Part shown: positions 46,989 to 58,893 of the stretch, in pieces
Layout: each line of letters opens with the position of its first letter
Position numbering within the stretch: position 1 is the stretch's first letter
Assembly (NCBI RefSeq): GCF_030811595.1
Contig: NZ_JAUSRB010000002.1
Coordinates: 4,898,001 to 4,962,000 of the forward strand
DNA from: Streptosporangium brasiliense
GTDB lineage: Bacteria > Actinomycetota > Actinomycetes > Streptosporangiales > Streptosporangiaceae
Direction of reading: 5' to 3'
Length of the DNA: 64,000 bases
Notes under the pieces: model-generated
Database searches by the model: none
What the model saw: the letters and a program-made list of their open reading frames with translations, nothing else
What the model was told of the DNA's origin: nothing
Program-made: the position numbers and the translations under genes

Positions 46989-48860
46989 TCAGCCGCAGTG
47001 GCTCCAGCCGCTCTTCCACGACAGCGAGCCGTGCGAGCCGCCCCAGATGACGCACTTCTTGACGGCGGCGAGCCGTACCGGGCCCGCGTAGGCGGTGAAG
47101 GAGCCCGGGTTGCTCCCCGACGAGCCGCCCTGCACCTGGAGCGTCGCGTTCATCTTGACCTTCGCGGGGGCCACGTACTTGGCCATGGTGACGACGCAGT
47201 TCTTGCCCGCGCCGGTGTTGTAGAGCAGATAGATGGTCGCGGCGCTGCCCAGGGCCCGGGAGGCGATCACCTTGTAGCCCGTGCCGCAGACCACGGTCGG
47301 GCTGTAGGGGTTCGGCTTGGGCGGCGAGACCGTCTGCTTGGACGGCGACGGCGACGGCTTCGGCGTGGGCTTGGCCGTGGACGGCTTGGCCGTGGGCTTG
47401 ACCGACGGGGGCGGGCTCGCCTGGCCCGCGTCCGTCGGCTCGATCACCGACGGCGGCTCCGACGCGGTCTCCTCCGGCTCCGGCTTCCCGTCCCCGGAGC
47501 CCCCGCCCGCCTTCTTGGTCGACTGCCCGGTCGGCCGGTGGGACGGCTGGGCGACCGGTTCACCTGTGATCTGGACGGGGGGCGAGGGCACGGGGGTACG
47601 GCTCTTCTTGGGTCTGGGGGACTCCCACACCGCGGGCGGCTCGTCCGGGGTGAGCGCCGGATCCGACTCCTCCGCCTCCTGGGAGGGGGAGGCCGACGTC
47701 ACGGGCCGCACCGCCGCGGCCTTCTCGTCGCCCTGCAGGACCACCACGGTCCCGGTCGCCACGCTCAGCGCGGCCACTCCCGCGATCATGAGCCCGACCG
47801 GCCACCGTCCCTTCCGTCCGCCGCGCGGCGCGGCGGTGGGGCGGGCGGCCTGCGGCGGGACGGTGGCCGCGGAGGCGTGCGGCGGGCCAGGGGGCGGGCC
47901 GGCGGGCGCGTGCGGCGGGCCGGCGGGCACGGGCGCACCAGGGGTCATGTGCGGCGGGCCGGAGTGCTGCGGCGGACCGGAGTGCTGCGGCGGGCCGGCG
48001 GGCGAGGGAGCGGCGGGCGCGGGGGCCTGCCGCCGGGGGGAGACCGGGGAGGCGAGCGTCGCGCCCATCAGGTGGCTGACGAGCTCCTCGGCGGTGGGAC
48101 GCAGCGACGGGTCCTTGGACAGGCACGCGGCCACGAGGTCGCGCAGCTGTCCCTCCAGCCCGCCGAGCTCGGGCTCGGTGGTCAGGATCCGGTTCATCAC
48201 CACGGCGATGGAGTCGGCGCCGAAGGCCGGCCTTCCCGTCGCGGCGAAGACCATCGTGACGCCCCAGGCGAAGACGTCCGCGGCGGGCGTGATCTCGCCC
48301 TCGCTGAGCTGCTCGGGCGCGAGGTAGGACGGCGTCCCCATCGCCGTCCCGGTCGCGGTCACCCCGGGGGAGTCCAGGGCCCTGGCGATGCCGAAGTCGA
48401 TCACCACCGGGCCTTCGGGGCCCATCAGCACGTTGGCGGGCTTGAAGTCGCGGTGCAGGATCCCCGCACGGTGGATCGCCGACAGCGCGGTCGCCGTGCT
48501 GATCGCGAGCCGCTCCAGCGAGGCGCCGCGCCGCGGGCCCTCCTTGTCGACGAGCTGGCGCAGGGACGGCCCCGGCACGTACTCGCTCACGATGTAGGGC
48601 TGGCTGCCCGCGAGGTCGGCGTGGAGCACCGGGGCGGTGCAGAACCGCGCCACCCGCTGGGCGACCGAGACCTCCCTCAGGAACCGTGTCCGGGCCTCGG
48701 GATCGGCCGCCAGCCCGTGGTGGAGAAGTTTGACCGCGACCTGTTCCCCCGTCGGCCCCTTCCCCAGGTAGACGACCCCCTGGCCGCCCTCCCCGAGCCG
48801 ACTGGTCAGCTCGAAGGGGCCCAGCCGTTGAGGATCCTCCGCCGAGAGCGGCTGCACCAC
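46989..48860 (-). CDS. membrane Ser/Thr protein kinase with SapA-like extracellular domain
   Basis: The 623-residue protein has a cytoplasmic Hanks-type kinase domain (about 14-260) with Lys44 (VAVKLL), HRDFKPAN (Asp138) and DFG (Asp155), then a Pro-rich juxtamembrane linker. One transmembrane helix follows (about 353-376), then a Pro/Ser/Thr-rich outside stalk and a C-terminal domain (about 523-623) with four cysteines. That domain (CGTGYKVI, KNCVVTM, YAGPVRLAA, CVIWGG, ending SHCG) matches the pattern of spore-associated protein A of Streptomyces as I recall it. The domain probably senses or binds something outside the cell. The GTG at 48860 is chosen because GGGGGG lies 5 bases upstream. 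Confidence 0.88.
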   Translation of the reverse strand: MVQPLSAEDPQRLGPFELTSRLGEGGQGVVYLGKGPTGEQVAVKLLHHGLAADPEARTRFLREVSVAQRVARFCTAPVLHADLAGSQPYIVSEYVPGPSLRQLVDKEGPRRGASLERLAISTATALSAIHRAGILHRDFKPANVLMGPEGPVVIDFGIARALDSPGVTATGTAMGTPSYLAPEQLSEGEITPAADVFAWGVTMVFAATGRPAFGADSIAVVMNRILTTEPELGGLEGQLRDLVAACLSKDPSLRPTAEELVSHLMGATLASPVSPRRQAPAPAAPSPAGPPQHSGPPQHSGPPHMTPGAPVPAGPPHAPAGPPPGPPHASAATVPPQAARPTAAPRGGRKGRWPVGLMIAGVAALSVATGTVVVLQGDEKAAAVRPVTSASPSQEAEESDPALTPDEPPAVWESPRPKKSRTPVPSPPVQITGEPVAQPSHRPTGQSTKKAGGGSGDGKPEPEETASEPPSVIEPTDAGQASPPPSVKPTAKPSTAKPTPKPSPSPSKQTVSPPKPNPYSPTVVCGTGYKVIASRALGSAATIYLLYNTGAGKNCVVTMAKYVAPAKVKMNATLQVQGGSSGSNPGSFTAYAGPVRLAAVKKCVIWGGSHGSLSWKSGWSHCG

Positions 48861-48987
48861 AATGACCCCCCGACAAAGCATGCAAAGTTGTGTTAGGTGG
48901 TGTAGAACGCTACCAGTGTGGGCAGGGGTACGGGCGATCTGTTGAGATTCGTCCCCTCGTTGAGGTTGATGGCCAGGGGATAACGGT

Positions 48988-52902: not shown

Positions 52903-55677
52903 TTGTCCAGCAGAGGCAGAGGCGCTCGCAGGCGCCTTCTCGCGATAGTGCCCGTGGTCGGCCTGGCCGCCGCGGGACTGGCGGTGGGGGGAACGTCGGC
53001 GGAGGCCGACACCTCGGTCGCGCGGTACCAGCCGACCGCGGCCGACTACTACATCAACTACGCACCGCCCAGGGATGAGCCGGAGGCGGACGAGCCGGCC
53101 GCGCCCGACTCCAGGGCACGCAAGGTCAGCCCCTCGGAGAAGATCCAGCAGAAGTTCTCCAGCGGTAACCCCGCCGCCGCCCGGGTGCTGGCCGCCCGCG
53201 AGGCCGAGGCGATCCGGACCGGGCTCAACCCCGCGGACTTCCTGTTCAAGAAGGCGAAGACCGCGAAGACGGCCAAGCTCCTCACCTTGCTGGTGGAGTT
53301 CAACGACAAGGCCAACGACGACTTCTCCGGCTTCAGCCGTCCGGCGAACGTCGACAGCGAGGACCCCGCCGAGTGCGTCACCGAGCCGCCGGGCACCCTG
53401 CTCAACGGCCCGCTGCACAACAAGATCCCTGACCCGGCGTCGCTGCCGCGCAAGGACAACAACAGTTTCTGGGTGCCGGACTTCAGCCCCGAGCACTTCA
53501 ACAAGATGCTTTACAGCAAGGACGGCATCACCCAGCGCGTCCGCCCCGACCTGACCGATCCCCGGGACGGCCGTAAGGGCATCGACATCTCCAAGTACAC
53601 GATGAAGAACATGTACGAGGAGATGTCCAAGGGCGCCTACACCGTCACCGGTCAGGCCAGCCCGTGGATCAAGGTCCCGCACTCCGAGGCGTACTACGGC
53701 GCGCGCGCCTGCGGCCAGGAGGTCCAGGACATGAGCGGCCACCCGAGCAACCCGCTCGGCCCTGGCCAGCTCGCCATCGACGCGGTGAACACCCTGGCCG
53801 CCGCCGACCCGAACTTCCCGTGGGCCGACTACGACGTCGAGGACGTCGCCGACTCCGACGGTGACGGCAACTTCGCCGAGCCCGACGGGGTGGTCGACCA
53901 CCTGGTCCTGGTCCACGCCGGCAAGGACAAGTCCTCCGACGGCGGCGCCGAGGGCACCTACGCGATCTGGGCGCACTCCAGCGCGGTGGCGGGCGGCTAC
54001 CAGGTCCCCGGCAAGAACGTGAAGATCTCCAACTACATCGTGCAGCCGGAGGACTCCGGCGTCGGCGTCTTCGCCCACGAGTACGGCCACGACCTCGGCC
54101 TGCCGGACCTCTACGACACCAGCGGCCAGGCCTCCTCGGCCGTCGACTTCTGGGACCTGATGTCCAGCGGCTCGCACAGCGGCCCGATCTTCCAGTCGAT
54201 GCCGACCCACATGGGCCTGTGGGACAAGTGGATCCTCGGCTGGGCCAGCCCCAAGGTCTTCAACCCCGGTGACCGCGCCCGCGCGGTGACGGTGGGCCAG
54301 ACCTCGCGCACGCCCAAGCTCACCGAGGACGGCGTCCGGGTCAACCTGACCAGCGCGCCCCTGAAGATGGTCGAGCCGCACAGCGGCACCAAGATGCTCT
54401 GGTCCAACCTGGACCAGGAGTGGGCCGACTCCAAGATCACCCGCGAGGTCCAGGTGCCCGCCGGGACCGACGTGAAGTTCTGGCTCTGGAACAACTACGA
54501 GATCGAGCAGGACTGGGACTTCGGCTTCGTCGAGGTCTCCGTCGACGGCGGCGCGACCTACGCCCAGCAGAAGGTCTACACCGAGGGCGGTGCCCTGGTC
54601 TCGACCGACGACGGCTACGGCGACCCGAACAAGAACCTCGTCAAGTTCGGCAACAAGAAGTACGCCCTCACCGGCAACACCGACGGCTGGCGGCACGACT
54701 ACGTCGACCTGACCCCGTTCGCCGGCAAGACCGTCAAGCTCCGCCTGACCTACGACACCGACGCGGCCTTCACCCCCCGCGGCTGGCACGCCGACGACTT
54801 CGCCCTCACCAACGGCGCCGAGACCGTCTGGAGCGACGACGTCGAGGGCGGCCTGAACGGCTGGACGCCCAGCGGCGGCACCTTCACCAACACCCACGGC
54901 CAGGGCTGGGTCGTCAACAACGGCGAGCGCGAGGTCTCGCGGTTCTACCTTGCCGAGTGGCGTAACTTCGACGGCTTCGACAAGGGCCTGCAGTACGCCT
55001 ACGACACCAACTACGCCCGCGACGGCGCGTGGAAGGTCGAGAAGTTCAAGTACAACGCCCCGGGCCTGCTGGTCTGGTACCGCGACTCGACCTTCACCAA
55101 CAACTCCCTGATCAACAACCTCCAGCTGGCGCCGAGCATCGGCTCCAAGGGCAGTCTGATGGTCGTCGACTCGCACTACGAGCCGCTCCGCCGTACCGGT
55201 GTGGCGGCGGAGAAGGACGGCGAGCTCAGGGACAACCTGCAGGGACGCGTCCAGACCGGCAACGCGGCCTTCTCCTTCGGCAAGACCTACCCCTTCACCG
55301 AGTGCGTGGAGGCCGCGGACGAGCCGTTCAGCGAGTACTGCACCAAGATCGGCTCGCAGGGCGGGGTCCCGGAGTTCACCGACGCCAAGACCTGGTACCC
55401 GGGCATGGAGGTCCGTGACGGGGCGCTCGGCTACCGCGACTTCGACGCCTCGGTGGTCGTCCCGTCCAAGGGCGACCAGCCCTACAGCACGCGGGTCGTC
55501 AACGTCGACGGCACCCCGGCCACCGAGCTGTACGGCACCGACCTCGGCAACGGCCACGTCCTGGGCACCGGTAACCCCGGCGACGAGGGCAAGGCCCTGG
55601 GCGTGAAGCTCAAGCTGCTCACCCCGCTGCCGGGTAACCTCGGCGCGATCGTCCATGTGACGCCGCCCAAGCAGTAA
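52903..55677 (+). CDS. secreted M6-family metalloprotease (immune inhibitor A type)
   Basis: The 924-residue preproprotease starts at TTG, with GGAGG 7 bases upstream. No ATG or GTG in frame fits better. It has a signal peptide (RRRLLAIVPVVGLAAAG ... AEA), a propeptide to about residue 125, and the M6 catalytic domain with the zinc motif HEYGH (392-396) in FAHEYGHDLGLPDLYD. Beta-rich C-terminal domains with repeated W/G-rich strands follow. Family members such as Bacillus InhA degrade host or environmental proteins. The gene is closed by a strong hairpin and has its own AT-rich promoter. Confidence 0.93.
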   Translation: MSSRGRGARRRLLAIVPVVGLAAAGLAVGGTSAEADTSVARYQPTAADYYINYAPPRDEPEADEPAAPDSRARKVSPSEKIQQKFSSGNPAAARVLAAREAEAIRTGLNPADFLFKKAKTAKTAKLLTLLVEFNDKANDDFSGFSRPANVDSEDPAECVTEPPGTLLNGPLHNKIPDPASLPRKDNNSFWVPDFSPEHFNKMLYSKDGITQRVRPDLTDPRDGRKGIDISKYTMKNMYEEMSKGAYTVTGQASPWIKVPHSEAYYGARACGQEVQDMSGHPSNPLGPGQLAIDAVNTLAAADPNFPWADYDVEDVADSDGDGNFAEPDGVVDHLVLVHAGKDKSSDGGAEGTYAIWAHSSAVAGGYQVPGKNVKISNYIVQPEDSGVGVFAHEYGHDLGLPDLYDTSGQASSAVDFWDLMSSGSHSGPIFQSMPTHMGLWDKWILGWASPKVFNPGDRARAVTVGQTSRTPKLTEDGVRVNLTSAPLKMVEPHSGTKMLWSNLDQEWADSKITREVQVPAGTDVKFWLWNNYEIEQDWDFGFVEVSVDGGATYAQQKVYTEGGALVSTDDGYGDPNKNLVKFGNKKYALTGNTDGWRHDYVDLTPFAGKTVKLRLTYDTDAAFTPRGWHADDFALTNGAETVWSDDVEGGLNGWTPSGGTFTNTHGQGWVVNNGEREVSRFYLAEWRNFDGFDKGLQYAYDTNYARDGAWKVEKFKYNAPGLLVWYRDSTFTNNSLINNLQLAPSIGSKGSLMVVDSHYEPLRRTGVAAEKDGELRDNLQGRVQTGNAAFSFGKTYPFTECVEAADEPFSEYCTKIGSQGGVPEFTDAKTWYPGMEVRDGALGYRDFDASVVVPSKGDQPYSTRVVNVDGTPATELYGTDLGNGHVLGTGNPGDEGKALGVKLKLLTPLPGNLGAIVHVTPPKQ

Positions 55678-57036: not shown

Positions 57037-57099
57037 CCGCCGTCTCGGCCGCGCCGCATGGCCGGCTCAGGAAGATCCCCGGCGGCCGGGCCGATCCGT

Positions 57100-57275
57100 G
57101 CCGTTCCTGCTCCGCGTTCCGCCGGTCTCCGTGATCGGCCCGCGCTGTTCCTGCTCCGGGTTCTGCCGGTCTCCGTGATCGGCCCGCGCTGTTCCTGCTC
57201 CGGGTTCTGCCGGTCTCCGTGATCGGCCCGCGCTGTTCCTGCTCCGGGTTCTGCCGGTCTCCGTGATCGGCCCGC
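57100..57275. repeat. four tandem copies of a 44-bp unit
   Basis: Copies start at 57100, 57144, 57188 and 57232. The last three are near identical and the first has several substitutions. Each contains GCCGGTCTCCGTGATCGGCC. The array ends 5 bases before the kinase-like gene's stop. Since 44 is not divisible by three it is not a protein repeat. Confidence 0.95.
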
Positions 57276-57279
57276 GCCG

Positions 57280-58692
57280 CTACCGCCCGGACATGCGCTT
57301 GAACCTGCTCCGGAGCCGGTCGAGCAGCAGCGGCTCCCGCTCGGCCACGATCCCCTCCCGCGCCCGCCGCAGGGCGCCCAGGGCCTCCACCGCGTCCGGC
57401 CGCTTGGCGGGCGAGTGGTCGCGCATGCGCCGCAGCAGCTCCATGACCTCGGCCGGGACGCCGTTCACGGCGGTCTCGGCGTCCGGGCTCGCCGGAGGCA
57501 GCTCGCCGGCCAGCAGCCGGAAGGCGATCACCCCGGCCGCGTACACGTCGGAGGCGGCCGTCATCCGCTCGGGCCTGCCCTGGCACTCGGGGGCCACGTA
57601 GTGGGTGTCGAGGACGTTGGGGAGCTCGTTGGCGACGGTGTGCGCCCGGGGGCCCGGCTTGGCGTAGTCGAACCCGGTCAGCATCGCCCGGCCGTCCTCG
57701 GTCACCAGGACGCAGGCCGGGTTGAGCGCCCGGTGGATGACGTTGTTGGCGTGGACGTGGGCCAGGCCCAGCAGCATGTCGTCGACCACGTCGAGCATGG
57801 CGCCGGTGGACAGCTCCGGCCGGGAGGCGGTCAGGTGCAGGTGCAGCGCCTGGCCGTGCACGTCGTCGAGGACCAGCACGAACCGGCTCTCGTCGTCGAT
57901 GGCGAAGAAGTCGCGGGAGCGCACCACGCACGGGTGCGGCGGGATCCGGGTGAGGGACTGGTAGGCGTTGGCGATCAGCCGCCGCTCGGCCGCGCGCGGC
58001 TCCTCCTGGGCCAGCGGGTCGGCCCGGTAGACCCGCAGCAGGACCGTCTCGCTCCCCGGGACCGTGGCGTTGAACGCGCGATACTCGGTGACCCGGGTGT
58101 CCCCGCCGAGCTGCTCCTCCACCTCCCAGTTGCCGAAGCGCGGCGGCGCGGTGGACCGCCGCACGGTGCCGTTGAGGGCCTCGATGATCGGGGTGCGGTA
58201 CGGCGTCACGTCCGGGGTGTAGCCCCGCCTGACGCGGGAGACGTCGCTCAGCGTGCCGATCAGGCCGGGCAGGTCGGTGACGTGCCGCGAGTCACGGCCG
58301 GCCGGGTCGACCAGCTCGGTGTCGGGCCCGGTCAGCACGACGACGCTGTCGACGTAGATCCGCTCCAGCTCGCGGCGCTCCTGGGTGAGCAGCCCCTTGA
58401 GCGCGCGCCCGTTGCCGCGGAGCTTGGTCACCGGGGAGCCGAACGCGTCCCGCCGGGCGGGGAACCAGCGCGTCCCGGAGACCTCGATCCGGCCGCGCGT
58501 GCCCTTGACGTCGATGACGCAGAGCGAGTGGCCGGTCAGGACGATCGCGTCGACCTCGAAGGTGTCGTCGCCGCGCGGCACCTCGATGTTGTGCAGCAGC
58601 AGCCAGTCGTCGGGCGCGTTGTCCCGCAGGTGGGCGATGACCCGCCGCTCGGCGTCGTTCACCGGCTGTCCGCCGCCGACGATCTGTGCCAT
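57280..58692 (-). CDS. NERD-domain protein fused to a degenerate (pseudo)kinase domain
   Basis: The 470-residue protein has an N-terminal NERD nuclease-related domain (about 10-125) with the restriction-fold catalytic pattern FEVDAIVL (Asp48) and CVIDVKG (Asp61, Lys63). The C-terminal half (about 185-440) is a protein-kinase fold with APE-like VAPE and the SDVYAAG helix. Its catalytic positions are lost: HRD is HRA (320-322), the KPxN lysine and asparagine are Asn324 and Cys327, DFG is GFD (340-342), and the ATP lysine appears to be Arg220. So the nuclease motif is intact while the kinase is probably inactive. PglW of phage-defence systems also combines NERD and kinase domains. No defence genes are adjacent. 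Confidence 0.85.
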   Translation of the reverse strand: MAQIVGGGQPVNDAERRVIAHLRDNAPDDWLLLHNIEVPRGDDTFEVDAIVLTGHSLCVIDVKGTRGRIEVSGTRWFPARRDAFGSPVTKLRGNGRALKGLLTQERRELERIYVDSVVVLTGPDTELVDPAGRDSRHVTDLPGLIGTLSDVSRVRRGYTPDVTPYRTPIIEALNGTVRRSTAPPRFGNWEVEEQLGGDTRVTEYRAFNATVPGSETVLLRVYRADPLAQEEPRAAERRLIANAYQSLTRIPPHPCVVRSRDFFAIDDESRFVLVLDDVHGQALHLHLTASRPELSTGAMLDVVDDMLLGLAHVHANNVIHRALNPACVLVTEDGRAMLTGFDYAKPGPRAHTVANELPNVLDTHYVAPECQGRPERMTAASDVYAAGVIAFRLLAGELPPASPDAETAVNGVPAEVMELLRRMRDHSPAKRPDAVEALGALRRAREGIVAEREPLLLDRLRSRFKRMSGR

Positions 58693-58893
58693 CTCTAGCG
58701 CGCCGTCCTTCCCACCTCACCGTGCATCGAAGTAGGGCAAGGGTCTCATGCTCCCGCGTATCTTTACTTTTCCGCCACTCTGACGTGCCCGAGTATCTAT
58801 GATCATGGGCGCCCCGGCCGCGGAGAAGCGGGCGAAATGTCCGGTATGGCGGTCAAGTGCTGAACCGTTCGGCGGGGAGTACGCTCGGCTGAC

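Follow-up and report, generated by a model that had tools for sequence, protein, structure and literature searches.

A free-standing NERD-pseudokinase gene of Streptosporangium brasiliense and its relatives, probably domesticated from a MADS antiphage operon

A gene of the soil bacterium Streptosporangium brasiliense that encodes a NERD domain joined to a pseudokinase very likely originated from a decayed antiphage locus of the methylation-associated defense system (MADS). The complete reading, according to which this fragment of the operon was domesticated and probably works as a nuclease gated by its pseudokinase, is given a somewhat better than even chance, with the weight on the origin. 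The gated mode of action, taken by itself, stands at about even. The pairing of a NERD domain with a pseudokinase is already known from PglW, from some DndF proteins and from MAD6. What is new here is the orphan state of the protein, i.e. a NERD domain and a dead kinase that are free of the active kinase and of the operon.

The gene was analysed in a window of 64,000 nucleotides, the whole stretch of DNA under study. Its limits, 57280 to 58692, had been given exactly by the initial annotation. The gene is read from the minus strand in an intact, frameshift-free frame that starts with ATG and comprises 470 codons and a stop, and both flanking genes were called on the plus strand. The features discussed below are the following, with the evidence for each.

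57280..58692, minus strand: standalone NERD-pseudokinase gene, 470 aa (intact open reading frame; one full-length match in its own genome, G000)
58330..58659, minus strand: NERD nuclease-related domain, residues 12-121 (Pfam PF08378, 66.2 bits, and predicted secondary structure)
58504..58650, minus strand: span with the nuclease-type residues E15, E46, D48, D61 and K63 (identical in all 81 standalone orthologues)
57373..58137, minus strand: pseudokinase domain, about residues 186-440 (Pfam PF00069, 72 bits; Foldseek; motif counts)
57283..57345, minus strand: basic C-terminal tail, residues 450-470 (DRLRSRFKRMSGR), where MAD6 has its second kinase (charge and tail pattern)
58715..58783, minus strand: decayed relic of the mad5 3' end, directly upstream of the start codon (protein-level and co-linear DNA scores)

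The NERD model of Pfam aligns with the N-terminal part of the protein over model positions 3-111 of 111, well above its cut-off of 22.1 bits. The nuclease-type set reads E15, E46-x-D48 and D61-V62-K63 in the query, and each of these five charged residues is kept in all 81 standalone orthologues, query included, while 50 of the 110 columns of the domain are invariant. The intact D-x(n)-D-x-K pattern announced by the initial annotation is thus present and conserved. The secondary structure predicted for this half runs through a helix (13-25), three strands (31-40, 43-52 and 57-63), a second helix (87-105) and a last strand (114-120). A helix, three strands, a helix and a strand is the order expected of the PD-(D/E)XK fold, and the elements of the NERD half follow this expectation in the predicted structure of the query (mean pLDDT 81.5, pTM 0.64). 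No solved structure matches this half in sequence at E values up to 1. The lack of a nuclease fold, envisaged at the outset as an argument against the annotation, was not what was found: the profile match and the predicted secondary structure both fit a fold of the nuclease type. Nuclease is the putative function of this half.

In the second half of the protein, the Pfam Pkinase model matches residues 239-415, its cut-off being 31.7 bits. Foldseek, used with the predicted structure, returned PknB and other kinases as best matches, with a TM-score by target of up to 0.77 among the matches listed; these were kinases only, with none for the NERD half. The alterations claimed for HRD, KPxN, DFG and the ATP lysine are all seen in the query, which carries VLLR220 for VAIK, H320-R-A322 for HRD, N324-P-A-C327 for KPxN and G340-F-D342 for DFG. 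The ATP-lysine site is R220 in 81 of 81 standalone orthologues, the site of the HRD aspartate (A322) is alanine in 80 and serine in one, and the site of the DFG aspartate (G340) is glycine in all. The beta3 lysine, HRD aspartate and DFG aspartate of an active Hanks-type kinase are consequently missing from the 81 proteins. C and S predominate at position 327, with N in one row. Other positions are just as stable: R321 and E369 occur in 81/81, and so does the pair R220-E236, which we align with the canonical Lys-Glu pair. In the kinase N-lobe, 49 of 93 columns are invariant.

These counts refer to the best 80 of 101 relatives from named genomes, to which the query was added. The 80 relatives were found by means of two peptide patterns, one of which, TVLLRVY, covers the R220 site and biases the R220 count. 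A pattern-independent set of 24 standalones and two long forms has R220, GFD and HRA or HRS in 26 of 26 members, and because this set agrees, the motif losses are a fixed property of the family and not the product of chance or local decay. A frameshift or a sequencing artefact is ruled out by the occurrence of the same losses in 81/81 orthologues. The initial annotation had foreseen that intact kinase motifs might be the rule among homologs and the present gene a frameshifted exception; none of the 81 has intact motifs and the query is no such exception.

The closest kin of this protein is MAD6. The NCBIfam MAD6 model, NF047741, scores 510.7 bits against the query for a cut-off of 460, over positions 1-462 of 612 only, and the PglW model NF033442 reaches 113.2 bits, below its cut-off of 990. 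The PADLOC profiles matching the query are PglW, mad6 and MkoA. In two genomes of the same family, the best matches lie in frames of 1352 and 1382 aa, with 63% identity over query residues 1-447 and 58% over residues 1-442, respectively. One of these two long forms belongs to a MADS locus (L123), in which MAD2, MAD3, MAD5, MAD6, MAD7 and MAD8 each score over their NCBIfam cut-off. Seven long forms (1351-1438 aa) were aligned. All of them continue, after the pseudokinase, with a kinase in which K524, HCD616, K618, N621 and D633 are kept in 7/7, and their C-terminal half contains a P-loop-like sequence with an AAA_16 match below cut-off. Further MAD-type genes adjoin five of the seven (L123, L140, L141, L143 and L144). 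The long form of L124 is accompanied by a MAD7 over cut-off, and that of L145 lies among plasmid genes arranged in the same order, as judged by annotation alone. The structure predicted for MAD6 residues 1-790 (pLDDT 74.4, pTM 0.45) was of too low confidence for a judgement on domain packing and was left aside.

By alignment, the query corresponds to the front third of a MAD6-type protein, devoid of the active kinase and of the C-terminal half. Both have a NERD domain followed by a pseudokinase, and the HRA and GFD motifs are also found in four same-family long forms. The long forms, however, carry on with the second, active-type kinase and the C-terminal half, whereas the orphans end at 441-611 aa with a basic tail, and no MAD2, 3, 5, 7 or 8 is present in their fetched flanks. 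A search for these five genes by tblastn at E values up to 1e-3 was negative in 80 loci and the window, several loci covering less than 10 kb on one side. Membership in a MADS system is ruled out by the lack of the other MAD genes in these loci together with the lack of MAD7 in the query genome. A split gene with its other half elsewhere is unsupported: the last 561 aa of the L123 MAD6 match nothing in the query genome at E values up to 1e-5. Their full-length matches are restricted to two Streptosporangium genomes with a long MAD6, and one more genome gives a weak partial match (30%). When the back half of MAD6 was compared with the fetched flanks by tblastn, the 152 hits all fell in its first 255 residues, which correspond to the second kinase; the orphan gene itself accounts for 128 of them and the other 24 lie elsewhere, and none falls in the part of MAD6 behind the second kinase.

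NF047741 passes the query in spite of the missing active kinase. It is matched at 1e-10 or better by each of the 37 members scanned (33 standalone and 4 long), the cut-off having been compared for the query only. Because the model accepts a protein without an active kinase, the name MAD6 would be misleading for the query. Annotation based on single hits, and defence counts derived from it, could report MADS where none exists. A divergent MAD6-like protein of 1268 aa (24% identity; L142:9935-13741), with NERD and one kinase match in Pfam, adjoins a MAD7 over cut-off in genome G097, which also has a standalone.

The standalone gene is a core gene of its clade. Among 100 genomes of the family, query genome included, 24 have the standalone, 2 the long form and 4 a match to the kinase half only; by our count of this table, the standalone occurs in 15 of 68 genera. 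In the eight standalone genera with at least two genomes sampled, all sampled genomes are positive, and in the other multiply sampled genera none is. A match was found in 16/16 genomes of Streptosporangium, 54/54 of Nonomuraea and 15/15 of Microbispora, in stop-to-stop frames of 478-630, 447-933 and 485-1073 aa, respectively. The exceptions are two frames of 1355 and 1357 aa, which are second, long copies in 2/16 Streptosporangium genomes. The position of the stop was checked for the 80 fetched relatives. MAD7 is present in 3 of the 100 family genomes, the query genome not being one of them. At class level, 21 of 394 genomes have a match, 15 of them in frames of 462-548 aa, all in Streptosporangiaceae, and six in long frames of 1382-1571 aa, five of which lie outside this family. 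At phylum level (396 genomes), two long frames were the only matches besides the query. Four candidates were scored per genome in the class and phylum searches.

A tree of 34 of the 81 standalones and seven long forms gathers the standalones in one clade (100/99) and the four same-family long forms in another (100/99). With the three distant long forms (95/94) as the root, the standalones come out as sister to the same-family MAD6. The position of the root is less secure than the clades because the distant rows have long branches. L142, whose branch is very long, had put the root inside the standalones; it was dropped and the tree rebuilt. The gene is under purifying selection, with dN/dS values of 0.065-0.322 in 11 pairs, some of which have few changes; the range is 0-0.318 for NERD and 0-0.367 for the kinase part.

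A trace of the former operon can be read directly upstream of the gene. In L123, the stop of mad5 lies a few bases before the ATG of mad6 (4855 and 4859). The DNA preceding the standalone ATG aligns co-linearly with this mad5 end: the query leader scores 26, the best of 1341 controls scoring 23, and 28 of 42 non-Nonomuraea leaders, query included, lie above the best control. In Nonomuraea, 0 of 39 leaders do so in the same test. With the condition of co-linearity removed, the DNA test gives a weaker signal: just 20 of the 81 leaders lie above the 99% level of the controls, and seven controls, besides one self-match, outscore the query leader. At the protein level, with X written at stops, the query leader ...EWRKSKDTREHETLALL... 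aligns with MAD5 ...YRWRDEADLKEDRALALL... at a score of 51; the best of 1341 controls reaches 37 and 22 of 81 leaders, query included, lie above it. The control leaders belong to other genes of the same loci, predicted with our own simple gene caller, with L123 and L124 left out of the 1341, and since orthologous leaders depend on one another, the counts do not stand for independent observations. The pattern at the mad5 end is probably older than the orphan because a similar sequence is present at the end of the distant MAD5 of L143. The relic could have been kept as a regulatory stretch.

The basic tail follows a linker of variable length in the standalones. The net charge over the last 18 residues is +3 to +9 in 81/81. 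A pattern of the R-L-R-x-x-L-R-R type, composed after the tails had been inspected, is found in its strict form in 74/81, the query failing; 300 shuffles yielded 1.6 on average and never more than 6. The looser form is matched by 77/81, the query failing again, and the form with K allowed by 78/81, this time with the query (shuffles: mean 4.7, maximum 13). A derivation of the tail from the second kinase of MAD6 was considered and is unsupported, the tail scoring below the best controls.

Genes in the present neighbourhood encode a diacylglycerol-kinase-like protein, an M6 metallopeptidase, a cytochrome oxidase subunit, an acetyltransferase, an ABC1 protein, a transporter and a PknB-like kinase, and no known defence operon lies beside the gene. 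Gene order around the orphan differs between genera. In 83 stretches (81 with the orphan and two MADS loci), the commonest other cluster occurs in 34. An operon partner was sought by synteny and none is conserved across genera, so that the function cannot be read from gene context. Neither a sigma-70 promoter nor an intrinsic terminator was found at the gene. 

Several other elements were recorded in these stretches. A 44-base tandem repeat (57096-57277; 4.1 copies, 97% match) comes to within 2 bases of the 3' end of the gene; it is missing from the other fetched loci and has one weak partial match elsewhere in its own genome. In five Nonomuraea loci (L082, L085, L102, L118 and L120), repeated palindromes of the TTGTCA/TGACA type lie about 30-70 bases upstream of the standalone gene, where they may form an operator common to this gene and its divergent neighbour. 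The gene for a PknB-like Ser/Thr kinase (46989-48881), about 8 kb away, belongs to a cluster present in 12/83 stretches, with no evidence for it as a partner, and a large immune-inhibitor-A-like M6 metallopeptidase (52903-55677) belongs to one present in 13/83.

Comparable domain arrangements have been published. In PglW, of type 2 BREX or Pgl systems, a NERD motif is described together with two kinase domains, the first of them atypical and the second alone with a predicted ATP site (PMC4365076). In Streptomyces coelicolor, this N-terminal NERD is likewise followed by an atypical kinase without predicted ATP site (195-490); PglW differs from the orphan by its second kinase, in which K677 is needed for autophosphorylation, and by a long C-terminal half (PMC4365076). 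The tie to PglW proposed in the initial annotation is borne out by these published domains and by the PADLOC and PglW model matches. In PglW and in some DndF proteins, NERD is reported to be followed first by an inactive pseudokinase and then by an active kinase (PMC12839542), and tandem inactive and active kinase copies are reported for DndF (PMC10853773). Such DndF proteins share the tripartite N-terminal arrangement (PMC12839542, PMC10853773). In them, however, NERD and kinases are fused to the DndF core as a part of DndFGH, a likeness drawn from the published descriptions alone. The initial annotation was right to join a pseudokinase to a NERD nuclease, the pseudokinase being conserved, but the novelty it gave to this pair is unsupported, the pair being published for PglW and some DndF (PMC12839542) and seen in MAD6. 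It also took no account of MAD6 as the closer relative, nor of the missing second kinase, the distribution as a core gene, the mad5 relic or the tail.

Query residues 10-446 align with positions 9-468 of the PADLOC MkoA model (PDLC03921), which we take to represent the Mokosh system protein; this model extends over 1607 positions, whereas the orphan has no further domain. Staphylococcal SmdA is likewise encoded by a conserved gene for a NERD-like protein, but it is a predicted membrane protein, lacks several conserved NERD residues and is described, in the accessible text, with no mention of a kinase domain (PMC9040797). In the bacterial pseudokinase family ActPs2 the lysine is likewise replaced by Arg, but the HRD motif carries Asn; NERD goes unmentioned in the accessible part of this 2025 review of bacterial pseudokinase families (PMC12599244). 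A search on NERD with kinase, PglW, nuclease and phage, covering for the most part literature outside subscription, returned no description of a free NERD-pseudokinase core gene.

An evolutionary scenario can be proposed in which an ancestral MADS locus of Streptosporangiaceae decayed and left the front of mad6, NERD and pseudokinase, as a free gene. This fragment, deprived of the active kinase and the C-terminal half and provided with a basic C-terminal tail, would then, in the presumed order of events, have become a core gene of the clade. A leftover of the decayed operon with no function at all is very improbable. Two thirds of MAD6 are indeed missing and the mad5 relic is still visible upstream, but the low dN/dS ratios in the 11 pairs, the matches in 85/85 genomes of three genera and the 80/80 fetched relatives open from ATG to stop speak against it. 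Under the preferred reading of a domesticated, gated nuclease, NERD would act as a metal-dependent nucleic-acid-cleaving domain. The dead kinase, lacking the residues for ordinary phosphate transfer, may serve as a docking or ligand-sensing lid that restrains or aims NERD, and the tail may tether the protein to nucleic acid or to another acidic partner.

Other functions were weighed against this reading. A stand-alone antiphage effector, i.e. a one-gene immune system whose pseudokinase would detect infection and set NERD free, is an improbable but not negligible alternative. The protein is kin of the defence protein MAD6, and the NERD domains of PglW and DndF have been proposed as suicide or back-up nucleases (PMC12839542, PMC10853773); against this role, a match occurs in every genome searched of the three genera, whereas MADS is patchy, and PADLOC matches 2/9 neighbours, both kinase-like proteins matched through kinase profiles. 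It is less likely that NERD is non-catalytic and that the fold is used by a housekeeping protein for binding or structure. SmdA, a NERD-like factor of cell morphology, offers a precedent; SmdA nevertheless misses several of the most conserved NERD residues (PMC9040797), whereas the five of the orphan are invariant. Slightly further down the scale comes a regulator or antidote of MADS, in which the free MAD6 front would compete with MAD6 and dampen self-damage upon acquisition of a MADS operon. The identity of domains with MAD6, the coexistence of both forms in 2/16 Streptosporangium genomes and the presence of MAD7 with a standalone in G097 are in favor of it, but of the 24 family genomes sampled that carry a standalone, 23 lack a MAD7 match.

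The domesticated gated nuclease remains the preferred interpretation, and a putative role as an antiphage or stress switch is possible. A bolder and tentative proposal, held with well below even confidence, is that an immune module was recruited for a core function of the cell: a nuclease gated by a dead kinase and freed of its kinase partner would perform a housekeeping or developmental job, such as chromosome handling in these actinobacteria, by means of the newly gained basic tail. A natural and conserved protein of about 470 aa that consists of NERD and the dead kinase only isolates the role of this kinase, which in PglW, DndF and MAD6 sits between NERD and an active kinase, and opens it to biochemistry and gene deletion. 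The same gene would also show how a defence operon can decay into a core gene while the fossil of an adjacent gene stays readable.
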